Shown here one piece after another: positions 1 to 32,934 of a stretch of 32,934 nt of DNA. The DNA is from Candidatus Thalassarchaeum sp. (GTDB lineage Archaea; Thermoplasmatota; Poseidoniia; Poseidoniales; Thalassarchaeaceae). The stretch lies in assembly GCA_022451235.1 (NCBI GenBank), contig JAKUOA010000013.1, forward strand, positions 1-32,934, in the 5' to 3' direction. The position numbers and the translations under genes were made by a program. Under the pieces are notes generated by a model. That model saw nothing but the letters and a program-made list of their open reading frames with translations. It did no database searches and was not told where the DNA came from. Position 1 is the first letter of the stretch, and every line of letters begins with the position of its first letter.

Positions 1-1764
1 TGCGTCGTATGCTTCTGCGGTGAAGATACCAGTTGAACAGACTGAGTCTGCTGCACAAGCGTCAGTGAAAGCGGTTGTACCGCCAGCTGCGGCTGCTCGA
101 GGTCGTGTGACCTGAATGCCGTTAGCTGCTGCAGGCTGTGTGTAGTCGTTCAGTGCTGCTTCTCCAGCCATACCGTCTGCGCTGAAGATTGGGATTGTTG
201 CGCCCATTACAGCCATTGTCTCTACGATCATTGCACCATCAGAGGAGTACGATCCTAGGAATACTGAGTCACATCCAGCATCCACGACTGCCTGAACAGC
301 AGCTTGGAAGTCAGTTGCGGTCTCTTCGTATCCGGACTGTAGGCAGACGTTGTCTGCGCCTAGGTTGGCTGCAACTGCATCTGCTAGACCTGCACCGTAG
401 CTGTTGGTCATGTGAACAATAGCGGTGTTGGATACTCCGCTTGCTCCAATCATATCAGCTGCGGCTTGGCCCTGTAGTGCGTCACTTGGTACGATTCTGT
501 AGAAGTGAGGGTATGCAGTGGCGTCGCTTAGTGCTGGCGATGTGCTAGCGTAGGATACCATTGGGATTCCTGCAGCCGAAAGGACTGCGTTTGCACCCAT
601 TGATGCTCCCGAGCAAGCTGCACCAGCTACTGCAACAACTCCAGCGTCCACAAGGGACTGAGCTGCTGTACCAGCCATTGTACCGTCACATCCGGAATCC
701 GCCTCAATAACTTCGAAGACGTAATCGTCTCCCATTGCATTGAGGTCAGCCATTGCTGCTCCCCACGCGAAGGTGAATGGAGCTGCGAACTGGGAAATTG
801 GACCAGATGCATCGTTAAGGAATCCTAGCTTGATAGTTACAGCAGGGTCTTCTGGGGCGACGAACATTGGGTTGTCGGTTCCCATGTAGAAAGCTGCGAT
901 TTCATCAACTAGAGCGTTTGCAATATCGACATCGAATCCTACAGCGTTACCGTTCTCATCCAAGTTCTCGAATGGAGGGTATGCTGTGTCTGAGCAGAAT
1001 TGTAGAGATCCTGACTCAAGGACCGAAGATAGTGTTGAGCCCTCGCTAGGTGAAGCTGGGTAAGCTACTGCGGTGTTCTCGTCACGGTCGTCTGTTAGGA
1101 CAACAGATCCCTCGAACCAAGCACCAAAGATAGCGTCGTACTCACCGGAGTCAACAATTGCAGTAATAGCAACGTTGAGTGCGGCGAGTAGCTCGCCTGA
1201 ATCTTCACGAACTGCGATTCCGAAGGTCTCGTCAGAGAATGTGGTCATCAAGTCTCCTTGAAGTGCCAATACTGGGGAATCTCCCATAGCATAGTCAGCT
1301 TCGCCGTTGGATACTGCTGCAGTTACTGATGGGAAATCATCGTAAGCAACAATTGTAGCCATAGCCAAATTATCCTGAGCATAAAGATCGGATGTAGTTC
1401 CAGACTGAACTGCGATGGTTGTACCAGCAGCATTCAGTTCTGAGACGTCCGAGATTGACGCGGAACCAGCTGCTCCGATTACACCTTGGCTACTTGTGTA
1501 GTAACCACGAGTGAAATCGACTACTTGGTCGCGCTCATCCGTCTTTGTCATGGCAGAGATAATGGCATCACACATCTCACCGTCATTCAAGTTTGGAATG
1601 ATAGGGTCCCAAGCGGAAGTGACTATGTCAGCCGTAATATCGGCGGCTGGCATTAATTCCCACTCCTCTACTGGGTCCTCATCGTCCCCACCCAGACAAC
1701 CTGCGAGTGATGCCGCAAGCATACTGAGTGTCATCAGCATTGCAATCATTTTCTTATCTAACAT
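1..1764 (-). CDS. Lipoprotein solute-binding protein: rearranged PBP2 domain fused to LivJ-like PBP1 domain (partial)
   Basis: This is a probable cell-surface substrate-binding lipoprotein for amino-acid-like solutes; its C-terminus lies beyond the left edge, and 588 codons are visible without a stop. The start ATG at 1764 is followed by a signal peptide with a lipobox (ASLAGC, lipidated Cys23). Residues about 43-225 match the middle and C-terminal parts of a PBP2 (HisJ/GlnH-type) domain, with WDPIIPNL, DAIISAMTKT and DERDQVVDFT. Residues about 250-290 match the N-terminal end of the same fold (AYPPFE, then GNAVGFDVDIANALVDEIA). Residues from about 310 onward match a LivJ-type PBP1 domain (IKLGFLNDASGP; GAACSG; PMVSYASTSP). 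The PBP2 halves are therefore in swapped order. No transporter permease or ATPase is visible in the window. The class is confident; the ligand is unknown. Confidence 0.85.
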   Translation of the reverse strand, partial: MLDKKMIAMLMTLSMLAASLAGCLGGDDEDPVEEWELMPAADITADIVTSAWDPIIPNLNDGEMCDAIISAMTKTDERDQVVDFTRGYYTSSQGVIGAAGSASISDVSELNAAGTTIAVQSGTTSDLYAQDNLAMATIVAYDDFPSVTAAVSNGEADYAMGDSPVLALQGDLMTTFSDETFGIAVREDSGELLAALNVAITAIVDSGEYDAIFGAWFEGSVVLTDDRDENTAVAYPASPSEGSTLSSVLESGSLQFCSDTAYPPFENLDENGNAVGFDVDIANALVDEIAAFYMGTDNPMFVAPEDPAVTIKLGFLNDASGPISQFAAPFTFAWGAAMADLNAMGDDYVFEVIEADSGCDGTMAGTAAQSLVDAGVVAVAGAACSGASMGANAVLSAAGIPMVSYASTSPALSDATAYPHFYRIVPSDALQGQAAADMIGASGVSNTAIVHMTNSYGAGLADAVAANLGADNVCLQSGYEETATDFQAAVQAVVDAGCDSVFLGSYSSDGAMIVETMAVMGATIPIFSADGMAGEAALNDYTQPAAANGIQVTRPRAAAAGGTTAFTDACAADSVCSTGIFTAEAYDA

Positions 1765-14650: not shown

Positions 14651-16789
14651 TCAATAGTCCCCTAATGACATCTGCTGTGGCCCAGCATCTCCGAGTATCT
14701 CGCCGGAGTTTTCTTCGGCCGGATCTGCTCCTCTACCGGAGATTTTCGACTCTAGTTCCGACTCGCTCAAAACGGTCACTGAAAGCCTGGTTGCTTTGTC
14801 TAACTTAGATCCTGAGGATTCTCCAGCAACTAAGAAATCCAACTTTCCTGAGACGGATGAAACAACTTTACCACCGGCGGCCTTGATCATCAATGCGATT
14901 TCCTTCCTTGACCTACTCAAACTTCCAGTAATACAGAATGTTTGTCCGGTAAGCGGTCCTTCTGATTCTTGTTTTGCTTCTTCAGTAGTTATTTCAATCA
15001 CTGCGGCTAATCCTTCCACCATCTCCCTACGTTCTGACAGACCTTCTAGGAAGGAGCGAGCAACAGTCTCACCAACTCCTTCCAATGTGACTAATCTAGA
15101 GATTGCAATTTCATGGTCATTTAGCAGATTAAACATAGTCTCAGAATTTCCTAATTCTTCTGCAAATCCGGTCGCTAACTCAGGCCCAATACCCGGTAGG
15201 CCTAGAGCAGAGAGGAAGGCTGAGAGGCTGATTGACCTTGTTGAATCTAATTGGGAAATTATGTTGTTTGCAGATTTCTCGCCCATTCGTTCCAAACTGA
15301 CAATGTCAGAGTGAGTCAACGAGTAAAGGTCTGGTAGAGTGTTGACTAACCCCTCATCGCACAATTGTTCGGCTAATTTCTCGCCTATCCCATCCATCTC
15401 TAGAGCTCGGCACCAATACAGAATTGCTCTTTCTAGTCGAGAAGGACAATTTAGATTGAAGCAACGAATAAACGCGCCATCTTGTTGCAGATTAGTTTCA
15501 CATCTGGGGCATTGCTCTGGAATCAGGACTTCTGCGCGCAGAGGTAATGGGTCGTTGAACGGAGTTCCGTCGGCGTGAAGTCGATTCTCTAAGTCCGAAC
15601 TCTTAGCTTCACCCAAAACTTCGATAATCTTCGGGATTACATCTCCCCGACGAACTATTCTGACTCTATCTCCGATACATATCCCTAACCTTTCAATCTC
15701 GCCGGCATTGTGTAGAGTAGTGTTCTCAACTGTTACTCCTGATACCGTTACTGGTGCTACTCTTGCAACGGGAGTCACCGTGCCGGTCCTTCCAACCTGC
15801 CAATCTACGCCCATGACAACCGTAGAGGCTTCTTCTGGAGGGAATTTCCAGGCCAAAGCCCAACGAGGGTGATGTGCAGTTTGGCCAAGGAGTTCTCTCT
15901 TTGCTAAATCATCCAATTTGATTACTACTCCATCTATCTCCCATTGTGCATTATCGCGATTCTGTGTCCACTGCTTTGTTACCTCAAGAATTGCCTGGGT
16001 TACTTCCTCGTCGTCCTCTCCTTCGACTACTTCATTTCCAGCTGCGGCAATCTGGTTTGATTCGAGCCAGTCGATTGCCTCTGAGTCATTTGTGAAGGCC
16101 GGAGGTGTTGGGCTGTCAGGATGTCGATTTTCGGTACTTGGGAACATTACACCATAGGCATGAAATGCTAAATCGGCTGCATCCCCCTTGCCTGCATCCG
16201 TGGTTTTCTGACGTAAACTTCCAGCGGCGAGGTTTCGGGGATTAGGGGCGATAGAGGCATATTTTTTTCGAAATATATCCAATGGCATTACCACTTCACC
16301 TCGAACGTGAGCATCTCCTTCCCAATCTATTGACTCGGGAATATTTGGTATCCTACGAGCATTGGCAGTAACATCCTCGCCTCGCTCACCATTTCCACGA
16401 GTGGCTGCACGAATCAAACGTCCTCGGCGATATTCTAGAGATAATGCAGAGCCGTCCAATTTTGGTTGGCATACGAAACGACGCCCGTGGGCTGTTGTTT
16501 CTGCGACAAAGTGTGCAACTTCTTCTTCCTCGGTAGCCTTGTCTAGACTTCTCATTGGGAATAGATGATCGACTTTCTCTGAGCCAGGAACTGGATCCGA
16601 ACCGACTTTGGAAAGTTGTGGGTGTTCAGGTGCAAGTTGCTGTAATTCATCAAATAAAGCGTCATACTCGGCATCGGTTATCTCGGGAGAAGCCTCATTG
16701 TAATAGAGGTTGGAATGATGTGCAAGTAGCCTTGCAAGCTCCTCGATGCGGGCGTTGTTCGCCCACTCATCCATAGCCTCCGGAACCAT
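14651..16789 (-). CDS. ligA: NAD+-dependent DNA ligase
   Basis: LigA seals nicks in DNA using NAD+. The whole bacterial architecture is present in 712 residues: domain Ia (NLYYNEASPEITDAEYD), adenylation domain with active-site Lys110 in PKLDG, VRGEVVMPLDIF, NPRNLAAGSLRQ, EIDGVVIKLDD and ALAWKFPPEE, OB fold (VGRTGTVTPVARV), zinc finger (CPRC with CFNLNC; Cx2Cx12Cx4C), helix-hairpin-helix region (LPGIGPELA, LEGVGETVA) and a C-terminal BRCT domain (GQTFCITGSLSRSRKEI). The residue two before the lysine is Gln (QPK) where bacterial enzymes usually have Glu. A tail of about 27 residues after BRCT ends in QMSLGDY, resembling a PCNA-binding box. Archaea normally use ATP-dependent ligases, so the gene was probably acquired from bacteria. 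Confidence 0.97.
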   Translation of the reverse strand: MVPEAMDEWANNARIEELARLLAHHSNLYYNEASPEITDAEYDALFDELQQLAPEHPQLSKVGSDPVPGSEKVDHLFPMRSLDKATEEEEVAHFVAETTAHGRRFVCQPKLDGSALSLEYRRGRLIRAATRGNGERGEDVTANARRIPNIPESIDWEGDAHVRGEVVMPLDIFRKKYASIAPNPRNLAAGSLRQKTTDAGKGDAADLAFHAYGVMFPSTENRHPDSPTPPAFTNDSEAIDWLESNQIAAAGNEVVEGEDDEEVTQAILEVTKQWTQNRDNAQWEIDGVVIKLDDLAKRELLGQTAHHPRWALAWKFPPEEASTVVMGVDWQVGRTGTVTPVARVAPVTVSGVTVENTTLHNAGEIERLGICIGDRVRIVRRGDVIPKIIEVLGEAKSSDLENRLHADGTPFNDPLPLRAEVLIPEQCPRCETNLQQDGAFIRCFNLNCPSRLERAILYWCRALEMDGIGEKLAEQLCDEGLVNTLPDLYSLTHSDIVSLERMGEKSANNIISQLDSTRSISLSAFLSALGLPGIGPELATGFAEELGNSETMFNLLNDHEIAISRLVTLEGVGETVARSFLEGLSERREMVEGLAAVIEITTEEAKQESEGPLTGQTFCITGSLSRSRKEIALMIKAAGGKVVSSVSGKLDFLVAGESSGSKLDKATRLSVTVLSESELESKISGRGADPAEENSGEILGDAGPQQMSLGDY

Positions 16790-18650: not shown

Positions 18651-21600
18651 TCATATTCGGAATCCGCTATCGTCCTCTGAACCATCATCGATTCCTGCGA
18701 TTCTCTCCTGGCCTTCTGAGTCTACGAATGAACCCGCTTTCACAACCGAGCCATATAGGCCGGATTCATTGACTGTGGTTCGGTTAAGCATTCCATCACC
18801 AAGAGAGGCACTGATGTGGTTGATAATCGACTGCAATGCATTGATTGCTCTGTCTCGCTGATCCGCGCCTATCTCATGGTCGGAATATCTGGCTTCTTCA
18901 AAGAGCGAGAAGAAGACGTCCAAATCCTCAGGAGGTGCGATGCCTGCTAACATTCCTGTTACCGCATCCTCGAATTCTCTGGTTGTTTCGTAGACCTTCT
19001 TCATCGCGCCTCTACTGCGGAAGAATCTCACCAACTCCTTGTAACAATTGAAAATCGTATCAATGTACTCATTGGATGCCTTTAGAGACATTAGGGAGTC
19101 TGTTAGAATACCGCGCAGAATCTCGATTCTGCGGCGCTCTACGTAGTTCCGATACATGATTGCCCCCACCAAGACTGCGAAGGCTAATGCAATTCCAATA
19201 ATCGTAAGCACTTGGAATGTGAAGAAGCTCGCTTCTGCCTTGGTTACGGGCTCTCCTAGGTAAATCGCTGGAGTATTATTGAGGAACTCTTCTTCAAATT
19301 CGTGAGAACCCTTGAAGTGAATAGTCACTTGCCATTCTCCTTCAGATATACAATATCCTCCTTGATCACAGTCCAATTCTCCAGGAACGTTGACACCTGA
19401 GTAAGGGAAGCTAAACGAAGCAACTCCCAACTCATTAGTAGTCGCGAAAACTACGTTGTGAGGAATCCACTCGCCTTCTTCTGCATTCCAAAATTGGTAG
19501 GTGAAAATCACGGTTTGAGATTCTACAGATAGGTCTAATCGGTCTCGTAGAATCGCCACTGAACCATTGATGTAATCTCCCTCTTGGTAACCATCTGGGT
19601 TTGACCAGTGGTCCTTCAGCAAGATGTCTACACGACTTCGAACAAGCACTTCTATATCGATGAATGAACCATTCACTACAGGTGTTGTCTCAGCCCTACA
19701 ACCACCTGGTAATTCCTTATTTGGTTCATAGGCTATTCTTACGATTCTGAAACCTTCCATCTTGTCTGAAGTAGGTTCAACACCGCGTCGACTCGGATTA
19801 TCATCCGGGTCGCCGCTAAACCACTCAATTTCACCGGTCCCATCCTGTGTTATGGACGTAGCAATCGGTCGAGTATTCACCTCTGGATCCAAGTAAATAT
19901 TCAGACACTTGCCTCCAATCGGATTGCCATTTGTTTGAGTCAACCTTGCATCCAAGTGGAAGGATTCCTTTAGGTAAAGAACAGGGAATACAGAACCATT
20001 CTGGAATGTGTATGAATCAATATCATTTCGGAATGGCCCGATCTCTTGCACAGCCAGGGTTGAATTAGAGAATACTGGGAACAAGCGTGTTGTGCTAGCA
20101 TTGTGGTATCGATAGCGATCGTTGTTCTCGTAAGAATTGAATTCGACCTTGACAAGAGCTTGCCCTGCCTGTACATCTGTAAGTGGGCAGGTTATCTCGT
20201 AGAATCCATTAGCATCGCTCGTGCCAGGCAGACAACCAACTACCCCAGTTTCTGAACCAACCATTTCGTAGGTGACTCTGATTGCTCTATTCGATAGATT
20301 GGTTCCTAATTCATCAATCAACTGTCCAGTTACCACCATCGGCTTCTCGATAGGTTGACCAGTCGTTGGATCAATCTCGGAGGTGTAAACAATCTGATCG
20401 TCAACATTGAGAGTTGTGTATCCTATCAAACTAAATCCATCCACTTGGAACTGCATAACTCTTCGATAGTGGTCGCTGTTCACTACTTGCACACATGGGT
20501 CCCATGCTCCAGATGTACTGAGTGCTTCAGCGTCTAGCGGCCCACATCCCTCGTGAGGTAAGTTCTCCTCAAATCGTAGAATCACGTTAACAGGCCCAAA
20601 TCCATCTGGAAGGAAGGATTGTGGGTCATCGCGGAGTAATTGTGGGTCTAAGACCATCTCATGATGGATGGTGCCAGCGTTCGGACATTGGGTATCTACA
20701 ATCTGGCGGTGGGTGCGGTCTTCAAAGTCCGTACCTTCCATTATTATCAGAATCTCGCCACCATTTGCTCCACAACCATCCAATGCTTGACCTGAATCCT
20801 TGATGACTGCAGTACGGTTGTCATCGGTCACCTGTGCAGTGAATTCCCAAATATCTCCTGTAGAACGAATATTTGGGGTCGTATCTTGCAGTGTGATATA
20901 CGTTCGCGAAACTACCCAAAGGTCCATCGTACCCGATGTTCCTTGGTGTCGAGGATCCCCGGGGTATGTGTAGTCCAAGGTGAAGTTACCTAATTCGTGG
21001 TCTTCCTCTATTGTCAGGTTAACACTGAACCAACCGGTACTATCTGTCTCTGCGATTCCGTTGGTGCCATCAGCCTCCCAGACGTAATTTACCTGAGCGT
21101 TCTTCAGTGGTTGGAGAGAATTATCCAGCAACTGAACATCTATGCTACGATTCTGGCCACGATATAGACGTGGCTGGATTAATTCCTTGAATTCACTGGT
21201 ACCAATAACCGAGACATTGAGATATGCTCCAGTTGGAGCAAGCACGTTACTCTGATTTCCAGTAAAGTAGAAATTTGAGTTGGTGAAGTCGGCTCGAATA
21301 CCATAGAATCCGGCAGCATATTGAGAGTACCATGTCCAATTGTAATCGAAGGTTGCCACACCATTGATCATCTGAGGTGCTCTGGCGAATCCTGTTTCTT
21401 GCGAACCAGCAAAAATTCCATTCCTATCTAGGTCGACTTGCAGAGTCATAGGATCGTGCGGCCATGGAACCATGGTTCTATTCCACACACTACCAATGAC
21501 TCGTAACTCCTCGCCCGTGAACATTTCAGGAATGATTTCACAGCGTATTGCACTGTCTGGATCTGTTGGCTCAACAGGACCACAAGGAGGTGCATTGAAG

Positions 21601-24600
21601 TCCCCGCCATTTTGCATCGCGATTCTCCAATGAGTACCGTTGGAGGAAAGGAATGGCCGTAGTCTAGCACTTTCACCAGTTAGACCTTCAGGAGTTCCGT
21701 CCCAAGACATCGCGTATGGCTTACCAAGACTGACATCGGCATAATTCAATCCAGCAGCATCAAGGCTTGGTTGGTGGAAAAGAGCTCTCCAAGCCCCGAA
21801 TGAAGAGCCGGTAAACTGGGTTGCATCCCAGAAGAAGACTGGTCTAACAGAAGAGACGTACATATCAGCTTCAATGTACATCCTGTGCATGGAGCGAATG
21901 GTGAATGCCTCAGTCTCTGCACCCTCAAGATAAGGGAATGGCAATTCATCGCCTAAATCCGGTCTGGCATAGCCAATCAATGAGTAATCACCAATTGGTA
22001 AGCTAGTATTGGTGTAATCATAACGTCCTAAAACATAGTGATTCTTTGCGTTATCATCCCAGATTATTTCCTCGTATCCTCCTTGTGGAATTCCAACGCC
22101 ATTATCCATTGTTGAATTCCATTGAACTTGCTTCCATTGTCCTTGAGCCCCGGCGGTTTGTACGAAGGTCAATGATGCCCAGCCGCCCGAATCCGCGCGA
22201 TATCCATATCCATATCCATCAAATATCGTAGGGTGTGTATAGTTCCCAAATGGACCACCGTGGACACGGAAGGAAATCGGTGCATGAGTAATTCTGTTGT
22301 CGAATATACCACGGTCCCAATCTGCTTCGTAGTGGACCTTATAATCAACGAAGAGAGGTTGTTCGTCACTTCGGAAATACGTCCAAGAGACATAATCAAT
22401 AGTGGTGTTTGCTCTGATTTCTACAGGTATTGGTTCGGTTTGAGAGCTGTCGTGGTAGAACATCTCAGTAACCTCTGCATAGACATTGTAGGTTGTATTT
22501 GGGCCTACAATTAGGTCCTCAGGCAATAGGAATTGCCCCACCACGAAGGCCCCAGCAGCGTCTGTCAATACGTCTACTGTTTCAAGGGCGAGAGTCCCAT
22601 TTCGCGCCCATTCAATTGTTATCTGGACTGGTAGGTCGGGAGCTGGTTCGAAAACACCTGTATCTGGATCTAACCAATTCACTGTACCTTTGAATATCGC
22701 TGGATTAACCGCATCTAACCAAAGCACGTTACTGGAATTCATGGTGATTCGGGTTGGAACCTTGTCGTCCTCGTCTAGGACTCCATCATTATCATGGTCC
22801 CAATCTGATGTTCCAGAGTGATCCTCTTCTACTTGGTCCCAATCTCTGTCTGGTCGCTCGTCGGTGTCGTCGTCCTCGTCAATTGCATCCGGGCCGGTGA
22901 ATGGATCAGTTGGATTGGCGATTCCTGTTCCATTACCATAATCGTCGTGATCCCAGGGGTTTGTTGATGGTTGATCAAATCGAGATGGCCACAGCATGAT
23001 TTCGTCCTTATCTAACATCCCATCCGAGTCGTCGTCGAGGTCAACGTCGTCTCGAAGACCGTCATTATCGTGATCCCAAGGGGAGATGAATGGAGTGGCT
23101 GAATTTAATTCAAGAGTATTGACTATTCCATCAGCATCCCAATCGTCATCAGCCCAATCTAGAACCCCATCGTTATCGTGATCCCAGACGCTCTGTTCCT
23201 CACCGGTGAAACATAGAGTTTCTTGCACTTCATCAAGTACGCCGTTATTGTCATCGTCGGGGTCTTCACCGTCTGGTACTCCGTCGTTATCGTTGTCAAC
23301 GTCGTAGTAGATTGGGAATAGTAATCCTTGACCCAATACACCTTGGTCCCAAACAGATTGATACCAGCCATCATTGTCTGGATCTGTATCGGTTCCATCG
23401 TCATCTTGGTCGACACAATTTGAACCGATGAAGAAATTACCTGGTTCTGTTCCACTATCGTCATCTAAGTCATCGTTACTATCGAGTTCGAAATAATCCC
23501 AGATACCGTCGTTATCATCATCTATATCCCAATGGTCGTATACACCGTCGAAGTCATCATCTAAATCAGCGGTATCATTTACCATACATGATGGATTCAT
23601 ATTACCAGGAATTGGAGCCCCGCAGTCGTCATCTGGGTCTACGTCGTTATCAAGTAAATCCGCAACTTCATCGGGGAACATGTTAGCGTTTTGGTCGGAA
23701 GTCCATTGGAAGAATCCGTAAGTTATCCCGATCCAAGCCGTGAATAAATCACGATTGTTTTTCATCTGGTCGTAGGTTACTGCGGCCGTAGGGTCGGGAG
23801 TATCGGTTGTGAAATCAAAGTGGAAACAGTTCGAGTCACAGCTCGGTGCTGGGCTATTATCTGGTGCGTCTGTTCCATCGTATGGGCCATCATCATATTC
23901 AGGATCCGGCCGAGTTGAGTAAGGTACGGTGAAGATAATTTGACCTGTTTGAGATGCCTGATTAATTGGCCATCCGTAAAGGAAGGACAAAGGAAGTCCA
24001 CAGGCTATTGGTTGGAATCCAAGTTGGTAATACATGTAGAAGATTGAAAGATCGCATTCACCATCATCAGTGCTTCCACCAAACTGAGGATTATTAACAT
24101 CTAATCTGCCATCTGAACCTTCGTCTTGATCCCACCAGTCGGGCATTCCATCTGCGTCCATATCTACGTCTATACCATTAATTAGAGAATCTCCATCCAT
24201 ATCAATATCAAAGTAATTATTCCCATTCCAAGGACTCCACTTCATCATAACAAACCAGTACATTTCAGGGACTACTCCATTTGAGACCATTTCAGGGACT
24301 TCAGTATCTGTTGTTTCCTCGTACCCATTGTACGGAAGAATAAATCCATGTTCTTCGGCGAAAAACGGGCTGAAATGCCAAAATTGATCCCATCTTAAGG
24401 GTTGAAGCATGGTGTAGGTAGTGCTGTCATCACTACCATCGATTATATCGCCATCTCCGTGAGAGTAGCCATTTGAGGTAGAGAATTGGTCTGAGTTGTC
24501 GTTGTCGACTATTCCACAATTTCCATCATCGGGGTCATAGAGATCTGGTATGCCATCGTTATCGTCATCCCAATCCTCGTCATTTGGTAGGCCGTCGCCA

Positions 24601-26663
24601 TCAATATCCGTATCGATATCATTAGGCCCGTCGTCTCGGAATCTTGAACCATTTAGAAGATGAAGATCGTTATCATCATCCAAATCGCAATTTGGATCTA
24701 TATCTAGCCAATCTAAAACGCCGTCATTATCATCATCCACGTCTTCCCAATTATTGATTCCGTCATTGTCCCAATCGTTGTTGCCTGTGTACGACTTTCG
24801 AGTCACGGTACAATTCATATCGGAGTTTTGTGGATTTGGATTCGTTAAGGTAGCACAATTCCAATCCTCAACTTGAGCTATAGTTGCCATCATGAAGGGG
24901 TCGTCTTCATTCAAAATACCGTCATTATCTAAATCATAAGGGATATCGAGTTCATTTATTCCAGGCTCTCCTAGTAAGTTATCGGCAGGCCAAGCGCCTC
25001 CAACATCTGTGTCCATCCAATCCCAGACTAAATCGTAATCTGAATCAATCGCTCTATAGATATCATCATCGGCGTCTCTATCGTAATCGATTTCGCAGTC
25101 GATACCGGGGATTTGAATTGGATGATCATTTGGATAATCTCCAATACCATCTAGGTTGGTGTCTAACTGCAGGCAAGAATCTGGTATTCCATCGTTGTCA
25201 TCATCAACATCATACATGTCCAGCAATCCATCGTTGTCGTCGTCAGTATCGGATGAATCCGGAGAGCCATCATTATCGTTGTCTGGGTCTATGAAATTTG
25301 GAATCCCATCGCCGTCAAGATCTCCGTCAATCATTTGAGTAAATGTTGGATTTCTTGGGTGCCAGATATTCTGTTCTTTGGTTGCAAAGTTGAGTTTGAC
25401 GCTTCCGCCGTAGACGTCAGGATTGAGGTCAAATGCGGCTGGCAGTGATTGGCTGGTTTCTGGTCCTACTGATATACTACCTGACCACAATGGGGACGCA
25501 GAAGATGGATCTGAAAACAGCCAATTGCCTTGCTCGTTAAAAGTAAATGAAAATGAGTCACCTGGGGCTATTGCTCCACTATCAAAAGTACCATCATCAG
25601 CAGTGACATTGTGAGATCTACTATCGTCATTGACCCATACCACAGTATCTCCAACTTCGATATTGTAAAATTGAGGATTGATTCCAGTAGGCGCCAATGA
25701 TATTGTAATCGTCTCTTTTGCGTCCCAAGGAAGTGGGTTATCCCACATTGATGCAGTATCAGTAATGTTGGTGGTGACCGTAGAATCCCAAGGATGTGAG
25801 TCCCAGAGGTCGACTACTCCATCATTATCATCGTCGTCATCAAAATAATCCTGCGCGCCATCGCCATCGAAATCGCAAGGCCATGTGAACTGGTCTATTC
25901 TGCCATCGTTATCATCATCCTCGTCATACGAACCTCGACCGCTGCCGTCTATGTCCTCATCAGTTACGCCATCATTATCGTGATCCATTGGATTCTGATC
26001 TATTCTGTACCCTGTTCCAACCGGAGTGCCCGTCCAAGGGTGCACTGTGTTTGGCTCAACATATCGGTCTGCACTAACATTCCATGGATCGGCTCCTTGG
26101 GTGTAGTCAATTGGACCTTCTAGGATTCCGTCGTTATCGTCATCCCAATCGTCCTCGTCGGAAATTCCATCGTTATCATGGTCGAATGGATCGGTTCCAT
26201 AGCAACCATCGAAACGCTCGATAAGGTCGCTAATTCCATCGTTATCGTCATCCAGATCATCTAGGTCATTGATACCATCATTATCGTGATCTTCGGTATT
26301 TGTTTGTTCAAGGAAAAAGCCATACCCGGGGTTAGTGAGCAGAACTGATGGGTCGGTAATCTTGCCTTGGTACGAGGCCGGATCTACCCAACTTGGATCG
26401 GTAAAGGCGTCATGGTCGAAATTACCCATTACAGCGGGTTGCCCTTGTGTGGCTCCTGTTGTTTGACCCTCGGCCTGGTAGAACTGCTGATATGCCGTCC
26501 TAGCGGGAGTCTCCTCGACCGTTTCGAGGTTGGGTCTTTCTTCCTCAACACCCATGAAATTATACATCTGTGTACTCATTAACATCAGTACTACCATCAT
26601 TAGCGCTGAGCCGCTCTTCTTTCTGTTCTCTCGACTGTACCAAGTCTGTTTCAATTCGTTCAT
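18651..26663 (-). CDS. Giant surface protein: thrombospondin type 3 repeats, cupredoxin-like insert, Ig-like region, C-terminal membrane helix and cytoplasmic DUF4129-like domain
   Basis: This 2670-residue protein is probably anchored in the membrane with most of its mass outside. Residues about 17-40 are a hydrophobic signal/anchor segment. Residues about 121-289 and 443-1306 carry many Asp-rich calcium-binding repeats (DxDNDGxxD; about twenty DNDG cores), typical of thrombospondin type 3 repeats. Residues about 313-400 look like a cupredoxin domain (YNIEVGDTVVWVNDD, SHNVTADD), but the Cys-His-Met copper ligands are missing. Residues about 1310-2470 are strand-rich Ig/CNA-B-like domains. A transmembrane helix (TIIGIALAFAVLVGAIM, about 2477-2500) is followed by basic residues and a domain with YKELVRFFRSRG and LFEEARYS, resembling DUF4129. 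ATG at 26663 is preferred to GTG at 26672. Its function, perhaps adhesion or surface processing, is unknown. Confidence 0.9.
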   Translation of the reverse strand: MNELKQTWYSRENRKKSGSALMMVVLMLMSTQMYNFMGVEEERPNLETVEETPARTAYQQFYQAEGQTTGATQGQPAVMGNFDHDAFTDPSWVDPASYQGKITDPSVLLTNPGYGFFLEQTNTEDHDNDGINDLDDLDDDNDGISDLIERFDGCYGTDPFDHDNDGISDEDDWDDDNDGILEGPIDYTQGADPWNVSADRYVEPNTVHPWTGTPVGTGYRIDQNPMDHDNDGVTDEDIDGSGRGSYDEDDDNDGRIDQFTWPCDFDGDGAQDYFDDDDDNDGVVDLWDSHPWDSTVTTNITDTASMWDNPLPWDAKETITISLAPTGINPQFYNIEVGDTVVWVNDDSRSHNVTADDGTFDSGAIAPGDSFSFTFNEQGNWLFSDPSSASPLWSGSISVGPETSQSLPAAFDLNPDVYGGSVKLNFATKEQNIWHPRNPTFTQMIDGDLDGDGIPNFIDPDNDNDGSPDSSDTDDDNDGLLDMYDVDDDNDGIPDSCLQLDTNLDGIGDYPNDHPIQIPGIDCEIDYDRDADDDIYRAIDSDYDLVWDWMDTDVGGAWPADNLLGEPGINELDIPYDLDNDGILNEDDPFMMATIAQVEDWNCATLTNPNPQNSDMNCTVTRKSYTGNNDWDNDGINNWEDVDDDNDGVLDWLDIDPNCDLDDDNDLHLLNGSRFRDDGPNDIDTDIDGDGLPNDEDWDDDNDGIPDLYDPDDGNCGIVDNDNSDQFSTSNGYSHGDGDIIDGSDDSTTYTMLQPLRWDQFWHFSPFFAEEHGFILPYNGYEETTDTEVPEMVSNGVVPEMYWFVMMKWSPWNGNNYFDIDMDGDSLINGIDVDMDADGMPDWWDQDEGSDGRLDVNNPQFGGSTDDGECDLSIFYMYYQLGFQPIACGLPLSFLYGWPINQASQTGQIIFTVPYSTRPDPEYDDGPYDGTDAPDNSPAPSCDSNCFHFDFTTDTPDPTAAVTYDQMKNNRDLFTAWIGITYGFFQWTSDQNANMFPDEVADLLDNDVDPDDDCGAPIPGNMNPSCMVNDTADLDDDFDGVYDHWDIDDDNDGIWDYFELDSNDDLDDDSGTEPGNFFIGSNCVDQDDDGTDTDPDNDGWYQSVWDQGVLGQGLLFPIYYDVDNDNDGVPDGEDPDDDNNGVLDEVQETLCFTGEEQSVWDHDNDGVLDWADDDWDADGIVNTLELNSATPFISPWDHDNDGLRDDVDLDDDSDGMLDKDEIMLWPSRFDQPSTNPWDHDDYGNGTGIANPTDPFTGPDAIDEDDDTDERPDRDWDQVEEDHSGTSDWDHDNDGVLDEDDKVPTRITMNSSNVLWLDAVNPAIFKGTVNWLDPDTGVFEPAPDLPVQITIEWARNGTLALETVDVLTDAAGAFVVGQFLLPEDLIVGPNTTYNVYAEVTEMFYHDSSQTEPIPVEIRANTTIDYVSWTYFRSDEQPLFVDYKVHYEADWDRGIFDNRITHAPISFRVHGGPFGNYTHPTIFDGYGYGYRADSGGWASLTFVQTAGAQGQWKQVQWNSTMDNGVGIPQGGYEEIIWDDNAKNHYVLGRYDYTNTSLPIGDYSLIGYARPDLGDELPFPYLEGAETEAFTIRSMHRMYIEADMYVSSVRPVFFWDATQFTGSSFGAWRALFHQPSLDAAGLNYADVSLGKPYAMSWDGTPEGLTGESARLRPFLSSNGTHWRIAMQNGGDFNAPPCGPVEPTDPDSAIRCEIIPEMFTGEELRVIGSVWNRTMVPWPHDPMTLQVDLDRNGIFAGSQETGFARAPQMINGVATFDYNWTWYSQYAAGFYGIRADFTNSNFYFTGNQSNVLAPTGAYLNVSVIGTSEFKELIQPRLYRGQNRSIDVQLLDNSLQPLKNAQVNYVWEADGTNGIAETDSTGWFSVNLTIEEDHELGNFTLDYTYPGDPRHQGTSGTMDLWVVSRTYITLQDTTPNIRSTGDIWEFTAQVTDDNRTAVIKDSGQALDGCGANGGEILIIMEGTDFEDRTHRQIVDTQCPNAGTIHHEMVLDPQLLRDDPQSFLPDGFGPVNVILRFEENLPHEGCGPLDAEALSTSGAWDPCVQVVNSDHYRRVMQFQVDGFSLIGYTTLNVDDQIVYTSEIDPTTGQPIEKPMVVTGQLIDELGTNLSNRAIRVTYEMVGSETGVVGCLPGTSDANGFYEITCPLTDVQAGQALVKVEFNSYENNDRYRYHNASTTRLFPVFSNSTLAVQEIGPFRNDIDSYTFQNGSVFPVLYLKESFHLDARLTQTNGNPIGGKCLNIYLDPEVNTRPIATSITQDGTGEIEWFSGDPDDNPSRRGVEPTSDKMEGFRIVRIAYEPNKELPGGCRAETTPVVNGSFIDIEVLVRSRVDILLKDHWSNPDGYQEGDYINGSVAILRDRLDLSVESQTVIFTYQFWNAEEGEWIPHNVVFATTNELGVASFSFPYSGVNVPGELDCDQGGYCISEGEWQVTIHFKGSHEFEEEFLNNTPAIYLGEPVTKAEASFFTFQVLTIIGIALAFAVLVGAIMYRNYVERRRIEILRGILTDSLMSLKASNEYIDTIFNCYKELVRFFRSRGAMKKVYETTREFEDAVTGMLAGIAPPEDLDVFFSLFEEARYSDHEIGADQRDRAINALQSIINHISASLGDGMLNRTTVNESGLYGSVVKAGSFVDSEGQERIAGIDDGSEDDSGFRI
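22745..25335 (-). repeat. Coding block of thrombospondin type 3-like repeats (main block)
   Basis: This part of the giant gene encodes degenerate repeats built on Asp/Asn-rich loops such as DDDNDGIPD and WDHDNDGVLD, interrupted by several longer non-repeat inserts. At DNA level the plus strand shows recurring ATCGTTATCATC-like words. The repeats are variable in length and sequence and lie in one open frame, so they are protein repeats and not a DNA array. Confidence 0.85.
25795..26302 (-). repeat. Coding block of thrombospondin type 3-like repeats (N-terminal block)
   Basis: This first block of Asp-rich repeats (DHDNDGINDL, DDDNDGISDL, DHDNDGISDED and similar) lies near the protein's N-terminus and is separated from the main block by the cupredoxin-like insert (about 25460-25725). 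Confidence 0.85.
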
Positions 26664-26697
26664 TCCGACCACCGAAGTAGCCTTGCAAAATCGGCCT

Positions 26698-29997: not shown

Positions 29998-30984
29998 ATG
30001 ATGACTCACCCCGCCCTGTCGCTCGATATTCATCGAATTGTGACGGATTCAGATCTTGACGGAGTGGTGACTGGTGCTATTTTGAGAAGATGGTGGAAGG
30101 AGGCGGATGTCGTTTTTGGTCATCCAGGAGCACTTCGGGCAGGAATGCTGGATGAAGTAATTGACAGGCATACTGCGGTTTGTGATTTGCCTAGACATTC
30201 TCAATGCGGATTAAGTATTGACCACCATCAATCAAATGCACCAATTAATACTGAAGAAGATTCTGAGATGGTAGTGGTTTGGAAGCCTACTCCCTCAGCA
30301 GCAAGAATTGCCTTTGATTTAGTTGGTGAAGTTGTCGATGTTTCCGATTTGACTGACCTTATGAAATGGGTCGACAAACTCGATGGAGGCTCTGTTAGCA
30401 AAGAGGAATTTCTCTCAGATCATCCCGTGGTATGGCTAGGAAGAATCATCGGAGGTAATGACGTAATATCTCTAGAAATTTTAGAGGCTTTGAGCCGTGG
30501 TGACTCTGTCGAGGAGATTCTTTCTTCTGAAAATATATCATCTGTAGTTGCTGAAAAGCAAGAATATCTTACTCGTGCAAATACGATAATTGCGGAGCGA
30601 TTAGAAGTAGTTGATAGGCTAGCAATTGTCCGATTAGAAGATATGGGTGTCCGCTCGAACGGTTATCGTGTAACTGCCTTGGCAGGCGATGATTGCGATG
30701 CTTGTATGGTAATTCATGGAGATGTTGGTGCTGGATTTGGAGAGGAAGATCGCTATCCAGTTTCGGCTTCGTTTTACACCAACTCTTTCCTACATACAGA
30801 AGGAGGGATATTCGACCTAACTCAGTTGGCAACAAGATTCGATCCCGACGGAGGAGGCCATGCCAATGCATGTGGTTGTAGAATTCAATCACTAGAAAAT
30901 GGCCAAAGGGTTGAGAGAAACGTTGTCCACGAAGATATTGATAAGAATATTCGAGAGTGGTTGAAAATGTGGGCGAATCGCTAG
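29998..30984 (+). CDS. DHH-family phosphoesterase (RecJ/NrnA-like)
   Basis: DHH proteins are metal-dependent phosphodiesterases that act on nucleic acids or small nucleotides. Motif I is VTDSDLDG (Asp19, Asp21), motif III is IDHHQSN (75-77), then WVDKLDGG, and the DHHA1-type C-terminal domain shows FDPDGGGHANACGCR. In motif I an Asp (residue 17) occupies the place where many relatives have His. At 328 residues the protein matches short DHH-DHHA1 enzymes and lacks the extra domains of bacterial RecJ. The exact substrate is not evident. Two adjacent ATGs (29998, 30001) are possible starts. It overlaps the convergent DUF4079-like gene by 4 bases. Confidence 0.9.
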   Translation: MMTHPALSLDIHRIVTDSDLDGVVTGAILRRWWKEADVVFGHPGALRAGMLDEVIDRHTAVCDLPRHSQCGLSIDHHQSNAPINTEEDSEMVVVWKPTPSAARIAFDLVGEVVDVSDLTDLMKWVDKLDGGSVSKEEFLSDHPVVWLGRIIGGNDVISLEILEALSRGDSVEEILSSENISSVVAEKQEYLTRANTIIAERLEVVDRLAIVRLEDMGVRSNGYRVTALAGDDCDACMVIHGDVGAGFGEEDRYPVSASFYTNSFLHTEGGIFDLTQLATRFDPDGGGHANACGCRIQSLENGQRVERNVVHEDIDKNIREWLKMWANR

Positions 30985-31567: not shown

Positions 31568-32934
31568 TTGGAGGATTATCTTCTTGATTGCGTCGAACAA
31601 CTGCAGAGAGCAGGTGACGATTCAGGGAGGAGGAAATCGGAAATCCAGCGGCCAAAGGCGTGGAATTTACTCAATAAGGAATGGAAAGCTTTGGCCTTCT
31701 TAGCGGTCAATCAGGCGGCGCCGGAATCTATCGATCCGGATTCATCGAATGGAAAATCCGCTAGACCAAATCGGCGTATAGGTCGAAGAGGAGGAAGAGG
31801 TGGCCGATCTGGATTACAAGATCGTTTGGAATCGCCACAATCAATAATCCGCTCAAAGGAGTCAGCGGCATACAGATTGGCGGTTTTTATTGCCCAGAAG
31901 CATAAGATGGGGGCTTCGTGGAAAGATGAATGGGATGAGTATTTTCAATCATTAAGGAAAGAGTGCGAAACTGGTGTTCATCCAGTTTGGGAGCGCATGG
32001 CTAGGGAGGCCCCTTTGATTGCGGAGCTAGGTAGATTTCCGATATCAGAAAAAGAACAAAATATTGATGCAGAGGATTGGTTGAGTCAAGCCGATTTCGA
32101 TCCTCGTGATTCATCCGCATTACTCAGTTGGCTGGAATCCTGCACTCTACAATTAGATGTCCATCAGGCATCATCTCTTCAGAAAATAACTCGCGACTTG
32201 CGTTCTGGAAAACCTCGTCCCCAGAAATGGAAGTTATGGATGAATCCTTCTTTGACAGATATGGCAGGAGATTATGCCCTCTTAGAATTCATGTTATTAG
32301 CGGCTGGAAGCAATGAACAATCAGATTCGATATTTGATAACATAGGCTCTGAAAATTTGCAAGACTTAGTGAAGTCACAATCAGACCTCCTTTCGTTAAG
32401 GGCCGGTTCAACTGAAAATTGGCAAGAAGCCGTTTCTAATGTTGGAGAAGATAGGCTCTCTAAGGCAATTCAAATTGAGGCGTGGAAGAATTTTCAAACC
32501 GGAAATATAACTGATGCTGACCCGCTGTTAATTGGTATCGAAATACTCGAAAATGCTGGTATCGAGCCTATGGACTCGCTCCGTTGGGCAGTAATTTCGG
32601 GCCTCGCGTCGGCGAATCGAGAGGCTGAAACCATCGCGATACTCAGGGGCCTGGAAATTAGTAATGAAGAAGAAATGAGTATTGCTATCGGCCTAATTTC
32701 TGAAACTGGGAATTCAAGTATTCAGGAATTAATTTTGAAGGGGCTTGCAAAGTCATCGGATGAACTAACTCTGAGTGTAATGCGGAATGCTTCCGCGCCT
32801 CTAAGTATCAGGAAGGAAGCTGCGAAGAAACTCTCGACAAAAGGCCTAGGTATAGAGGAAGAAGTACTCGATATTTACACATTATCCGCAGATGTGGAGG
32901 GGCTCAGTGGTGAATTCCTAAGTCACCCTGAATT
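31568..32934 (+). CDS. Unknown large helical protein with Arg-Gly-rich segment (partial)
   Basis: An open frame of 455 codons runs from TTG at 31568 to the right edge with no stop; the C-terminus lies outside the window. An in-frame stop at 31559 limits the start, and the TTG is the first start-like codon after it. Residues about 75-90 are rich in Arg and Gly (RRIGRRGGRGGRSG), often seen in RNA- or DNA-binding tails. The rest is predicted to be helical and acidic, with a C-terminal part that alternates short helix pairs (LRWAVISGLASANREAETIA; ELILKGLAKSSDELTLSVM), reminiscent of HEAT-like repeats. No signal peptide is visible. I do not recognise a family; the function is unknown. Confidence 0.7.
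   Translation, partial: MEDYLLDCVEQLQRAGDDSGRRKSEIQRPKAWNLLNKEWKALAFLAVNQAAPESIDPDSSNGKSARPNRRIGRRGGRGGRSGLQDRLESPQSIIRSKESAAYRLAVFIAQKHKMGASWKDEWDEYFQSLRKECETGVHPVWERMAREAPLIAELGRFPISEKEQNIDAEDWLSQADFDPRDSSALLSWLESCTLQLDVHQASSLQKITRDLRSGKPRPQKWKLWMNPSLTDMAGDYALLEFMLLAAGSNEQSDSIFDNIGSENLQDLVKSQSDLLSLRAGSTENWQEAVSNVGEDRLSKAIQIEAWKNFQTGNITDADPLLIGIEILENAGIEPMDSLRWAVISGLASANREAETIAILRGLEISNEEEMSIAIGLISETGNSSIQELILKGLAKSSDELTLSVMRNASAPLSIRKEAAKKLSTKGLGIEEEVLDIYTLSADVEGLSGEFLSHPE

Follow-up and report, generated by a model that had tools for sequence, protein, structure and literature searches.

The DNA analysed here, which we call the window, comprises positions 1 to 32,934 of contig JAKUOA010000013.1 in the Candidatus Thalassarchaeum sp. 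assembly GCA_022451235.1. It is the start of its contig (C5:1-32934) in a 1.48 Mb genome, and the nearest named assemblies belong to Marine Group II (Poseidoniales, Thalassarchaeaceae). At its very edge lies the 5' part of a receptor gene, an open frame of 588 codons (1-1764 (-), 588 aa) that is still open when the contig stops. Because the contig ends inside the gene, the protein lacks its C-terminal part. Intact homologues have about 1,030-1,060 residues with two PBP1 domains, and the full-length relatives are lipoproteins of the arrangement permuted PBP2, PBP1, PBP1. Further along, this archaeal genome encodes within the window a DNA ligase of the NAD-dependent, bacterial type (14651-16789 (-)), a 2,673-residue open frame (18651-26672 (-)) in which Pfam matches at E 1e-5 just DUF4129, close to the end, and two open frames (29998-30984 (+), 328 aa, and 31568-32932 (+), 455 aa) with no Pfam match at that threshold. 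An Rfam search of the window returned no matches. The features of the receptor gene are listed in Table 1.

Table 1. Layout of the receptor gene at the contig end
Feature	Residues	Position in the window (strand)	Basis
Signal peptide with lipobox LAGC (residues 20-23; Cys23)	1-23	1696..1764 (-)	Sequence reading
Acidic, variable tether	24-42	1639..1695 (-)	Alignment gapped and variable
PBP2 segment I: lobe 1 strand 2 and helix B, the whole of lobe 2, C-terminal helices	43-225	1090..1638 (-)	SBP_bac_3 positions 38-131; conservation
Linker between the former C- and N-termini	226-253	1006..1089 (-)	Rotation plateau; related linker in a second permutation
PBP2 segment II: strand 1 and helix A	254-299	868..1005 (-)	SBP_bac_3 positions 1-35; conservation
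First PBP1 (LivJ-like) domain, cut by the contig end	310-588	1..837 (-)	Peripla_BP_6 and ANF_receptor matches

The lipobox residues G22 and C23 are invariant among the aligned homologues. One homologue (L053:3819-7709 (+), the contig region of G110) has no lipobox; in its place stand a zinc ribbon, an apparent membrane helix and repeats of the calcium type. Its PBP2 domain nevertheless starts at about the same place as in the lipobox-bearing proteins, and this helps to mark the true start of the domain. The PBP1 domain matches the leucine-specific binding protein 1usg (E 6.5e-21). The sequence-only reading had described one lipoprotein with two binding folds, and this holds: a permuted PBP2 domain is joined to PBP1. 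The LivJ-like domain that it saw after the PBP2 part is indeed present, but it is the first of two, the protein being incomplete in the window.

How are the pieces of the PBP2 domain arranged? The Pfam profile SBP_bac_3 (PF00497, 132 positions) matches residues 43-218 with its positions 38-131, at 93.4 bits against a curated cut-off of 26.4. The downstream piece (window 901-1005, residues 254-288) matches positions 1-35 with 27.6 bits (E 2.1e-6). The two pieces are complementary, with no overlap and no block absent, and the N-terminal unit occurs a single time, after the rest of the domain, so the domain departs from the natural N-to-C order of the PF00497 fold. This bears out the earlier assignment of residues 43-225 to the middle and end of a PBP2 domain and of the stretch around 250-290 to its N-terminal unit. 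An HMM of the natural-order domain built from the window protein's clade gave a similar picture: the window protein follows positions 62-251 and then 2-63, and nearly all complete window-type homologues follow about 62-251 and then 1-63.

We then rotated the domain and scored it on an independent profile of 22 natural-order domains from other families (16 single proteins and 6 tandem units). The native sequence scores 149.7 bits on this profile and shuffled sequences at most 4.2. Rotation lifts the score of the best single stretch from 120.6 bits in the native sequence to 157.6 bits, the match then being one stretch. The gain forms a plateau for cuts at positions 180-212 in the tested domain, about residues 220-252, which correspond to the linker. 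The rotated sequence also yields a single contiguous SBP_bac_3 match (positions 1-131, 97.9 bits) and aligns with AncCDT-1 over its full length.

The sequence-only reading had proposed predicting the structure of about residues 40-300 to see whether the two parts close into one fold. An AlphaFold2 model of residues 29-305, built with 30 homologues, has a mean pLDDT of 79.9 and a pTM of 0.73. When residues 29-225 were modelled alone with the same homologues, leaving out residues 226-305, these values fell to 54.5 and 0.46, some loss being expected of any truncated domain. Most of the loss falls on lobe 1: model residues 1-65 drop below 50 and the strand 2 block from 92 to 41. The returning C-terminal part is lower too, and the core of lobe 2 (residues 81-130) stays at about 76-87. 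A loss centred on lobe 1 is the pattern expected if strand 1 and helix A complete that lobe. The two segments are thus predicted to close into one two-lobe fold, their contacts being read from confidence values. The deletion control supports closure; residues 21-60 score just 45-65 in the full model. The best Foldseek matches are PBP2 structures of family-3 receptors (2.4-2.7 A over about 177 columns), and identity to solved members of that family (GlnH, LAO, ArgBP, GlnP SBD1/2) is about 25-33% over the structurally aligned part.

The putative ligand residues are divided between the segments. Segment II carries Asp259, Tyr262, Glu266 and Asp280 together with Cys257; segment I carries Ser70, Thr73, Arg78, Thr123, Thr124 and Asp162 together with Cys65. 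The four of segment II and those of segment I (Thr124 aside) are present in every one of 36 diverse rows of the window type, and we take them to be the equivalents of the ligand site of the LAO/GlnH family (Tyr, Ser/Thr, Arg and Asp of LAO). On this conservation, a putative ligand cleft would be built from both segments. Cys65 and Cys257 occur together in 54 rows, are both absent from 28 and never occur singly, a co-occurrence that fits a disulfide between neighbouring strands. It is statistically weak because the tree shows few changes of the pair, and we use it as supporting evidence only.

Could the unusual order be an artefact? The gene sits at a contig end, where a misassembled or chimeric contig might be suspected. 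Yet of 244 genomes of the class, 55 keep this order at E below 1e-100, every one of them from the window's own family (f1), and the contigs of three single-cell genomes agree on it, AG-404-A19 (98%), AG-457-A01 and AH-287-M04 (together contigs L031, L044 and L052). As these independent assemblies keep the order, it does not stem from misassembly, and the chance of a chimera is close to nil. None of the homologues found for the window gene has the PBP2 N-terminal unit at its start, the arrangement that would have spoken against the earlier reading. A different concern is whether the fold closes within one chain. Receptors might instead swap domains to form dimers or chains, lobe 1 of one molecule being completed by strand 1 and helix A of its neighbour. 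Sequence evidence looks the same for intramolecular and intermolecular closure, and the connection from helix A into PBP1 is short (about 10-15 residues), which would suit a swap. The linker of about 28 residues between the two parts and the pTM reached by the monomer prediction argue against it, and we consider a swap unlikely.

It is also conceivable that the first domain is a decayed remnant of a tandem PBP2 protein that no longer binds anything and acts as a spacer. Such decay has a parallel in a related stand-alone subfamily (L137-L153, L071 and L072), which keeps the Cys pair and has lost Arg78, Glu266 and, mostly, Asp162; going by these residues, its members are possibly non-binding accessory proteins. 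Window-type proteins, however, keep every putative ligand residue invariant or nearly so, and we consider a relic very unlikely. Because the parts are complementary, the rotation tests agree, the order recurs in the 55 genomes and three single-cell assemblies, putative ligand residues are conserved in both parts and the deletion control behaves as described, our results support the circular permutation that the sequence-only reading had suggested; the domain is a complete PBP2 domain whose chain is opened in the loop from helix A to strand 2.

What would such a receptor do? Downstream of the receptor gene, relatives encode LivHM as a fused permease with two BPD_transp_2 matches, and then LivG. 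In one of them (L031), a PBP1 domain and neighbouring LivHM and LivG, the combination that marks a LIV-type (HAAT) importer receptor, are found together. LivHM falls outside the window because the contig ends on that side. The receptors of family f2 consist of PBP1 or PBP1-PBP1 and lack this PBP2. We infer that the window protein serves a LIV-type amino-acid importer as its receptor, with three binding domains. In its entirety, the explanation that we regard as very likely is a lipid-anchored receptor of a LIV-type ABC importer, with a circularly permuted family-3 (PBP2) first domain followed by two PBP1 domains. In the permuted domain, the linker would connect the former C- and N-termini, and the chain would be opened in lobe 1, in the loop from helix A to strand 2. 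Strand 1 and helix A, the C-terminal segment, would pack back on the N-terminal one and complete lobe 1, both segments would form the ligand cleft, and the two PBP1 domains (one of them, cut, visible in the window) would come next. The receptor would then bind an amino acid and deliver it to LivHM.

The same PBP2 lineage has been opened elsewhere as well. In family f3, from another order of the class, six genomes encode stand-alone proteins of about 320-350 aa that follow HMM positions 133-253 and then 1-133: the chain is opened at the start of lobe 2, lobe 2 comes first and a C-terminal membrane helix follows the domain. These proteins retain nearly all putative ligand residues. Their fused C-to-N junction is clearly related to that of the window protein (IVVLTDDTDADTATAYP in L159 vs SVVLTDDRDENTAVAYP in the window protein). 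In L159, the stand-alone receptor adjoins an ABC ATPase and a permease fused to a YCF48-type beta-propeller. PAAT-type permeases with an N-terminal propeller of this type lie divergent from the stand-alone permuted receptor at L159:1144-2958 (-) and L071:2199-3500 (+); in L071 the permease piece is cut and only the propeller is matched. Some f1 genomes also have a diverged stand-alone group, cut as in f3, in which most putative ligand residues are gone. Natural-order PBP2 copies are present in two f1 genomes, inside proteins that have LDL-receptor class A repeats (L157:3-2684 (-) and L158:2035-5640 (+)), and begin with the same YPxPSEGSSL-like motif as their permuted relatives. The window type, the stand-alone permuted proteins and these two copies form one clade as opposed to the natural-order receptors of the phylum (support 99/97). 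Tree tests on whether the two copies fall inside the permuted group gave a p-AU of 0.068 for the permuted forms as one clade and 0.225 for the stand-alone forms as one clade. Two candidates were rejected: PF00497 proteins of 400-430 aa, considered as a second permutation, are natural-order AapJ-like receptors, and duplicated segments in L134/L135 (HMM 43-78 twice), considered as a tandem relic, are tether and PBP1 residues on sequence reading. Open frames in another family of the phylum hold four tandem PBP2 units (L201:1059-4913 (+)) and two (L200:876-3080 (+)).

How did the permutation arise? Duplication into a tandem PBP2 protein followed by trimming is plausible, since family f17 of the phylum has proteins with two to four PBP2 units in tandem, in natural order. 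One junction common to two different openings is, moreover, the trace expected from duplication and trimming. These proteins and the shared junction make the tandem ancestor proposed from the sequence alone plausible, but no intermediate was found in the window protein's clade. On balance, we lean towards a permutation series of a single PBP2 lineage within one archaeal class: the natural order, a form opened in the helix A-strand 2 loop that is fused to two PBP1 domains and belongs to a LIV importer, and a stand-alone form, opened at the boundary of lobe 2, that is anchored by its C-terminus and encoded beside a PAAT importer, the shared C-to-N junction having arisen once.

Compared with family-3 binding proteins (PF00497; GlnH, LAO, ArgBP, GlnP SBD1/2), the window protein has all profile positions and the putative ligand-site residues; it differs in being permuted at the helix A-strand 2 opening, in the two PBP1 domains that follow and in its place beside a LIV permease. 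The closest natural precedent that we found is TpMglB-2 of Treponema pallidum, a type I glucose receptor with a natural circular permutation, for which a 'type Ic' class was proposed; according to its authors, most organisms having it possess tethered receptors (PMC4990184). Both are tethered ABC-importer receptors, naturally permuted, with first-lobe strands shifted to the C-terminus. However, TpMglB-2 has a type I (PBP1) sugar fold with three strands moved, whereas the archaeal domain, which matches PF00497 and type II structures rather than a type I fold, has moved one strand and one helix. Permutation of the type II fold itself has been engineered: a LAO-binding protein permuted for FRET sensors, with one inter-domain linker removed, still binds lysine, the affinity of the sensor being reported as 36-fold lower (PMC5087393). 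There, too, the old termini are linked, and the cut in the inter-domain linker is much like that of the stand-alone archaeal relatives; it is man-made and its cut site is unlike that of the window protein. In the literature that we searched, with partial coverage, natural circular permutation of ABC-importer receptors was reported for the type I fold only, and we found no report of a natural permutation of the type II (PBP2) fold.

The archaeal receptors would thus extend natural permutation to the type II fold, with two different cut sites and a relative in natural order, and the series would allow tests of how permutations originate and how they affect lobe closure and docking. A branched-chain amino-acid receptor of the Thalassarchaeaceae, livK, is described in the accessible part of a published report as highly transcribed, among the most transcribed genes of the family, collocated with its transporter and not common in Poseidoniaceae (PMC9723583). 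That part presents the gene as livK alone and mentions no PBP2 domain or permutation. The window gene is probably this livK. If so, its true architecture bears on uptake by the uncultured Thalassarchaeaceae, abundant archaea of the ocean.
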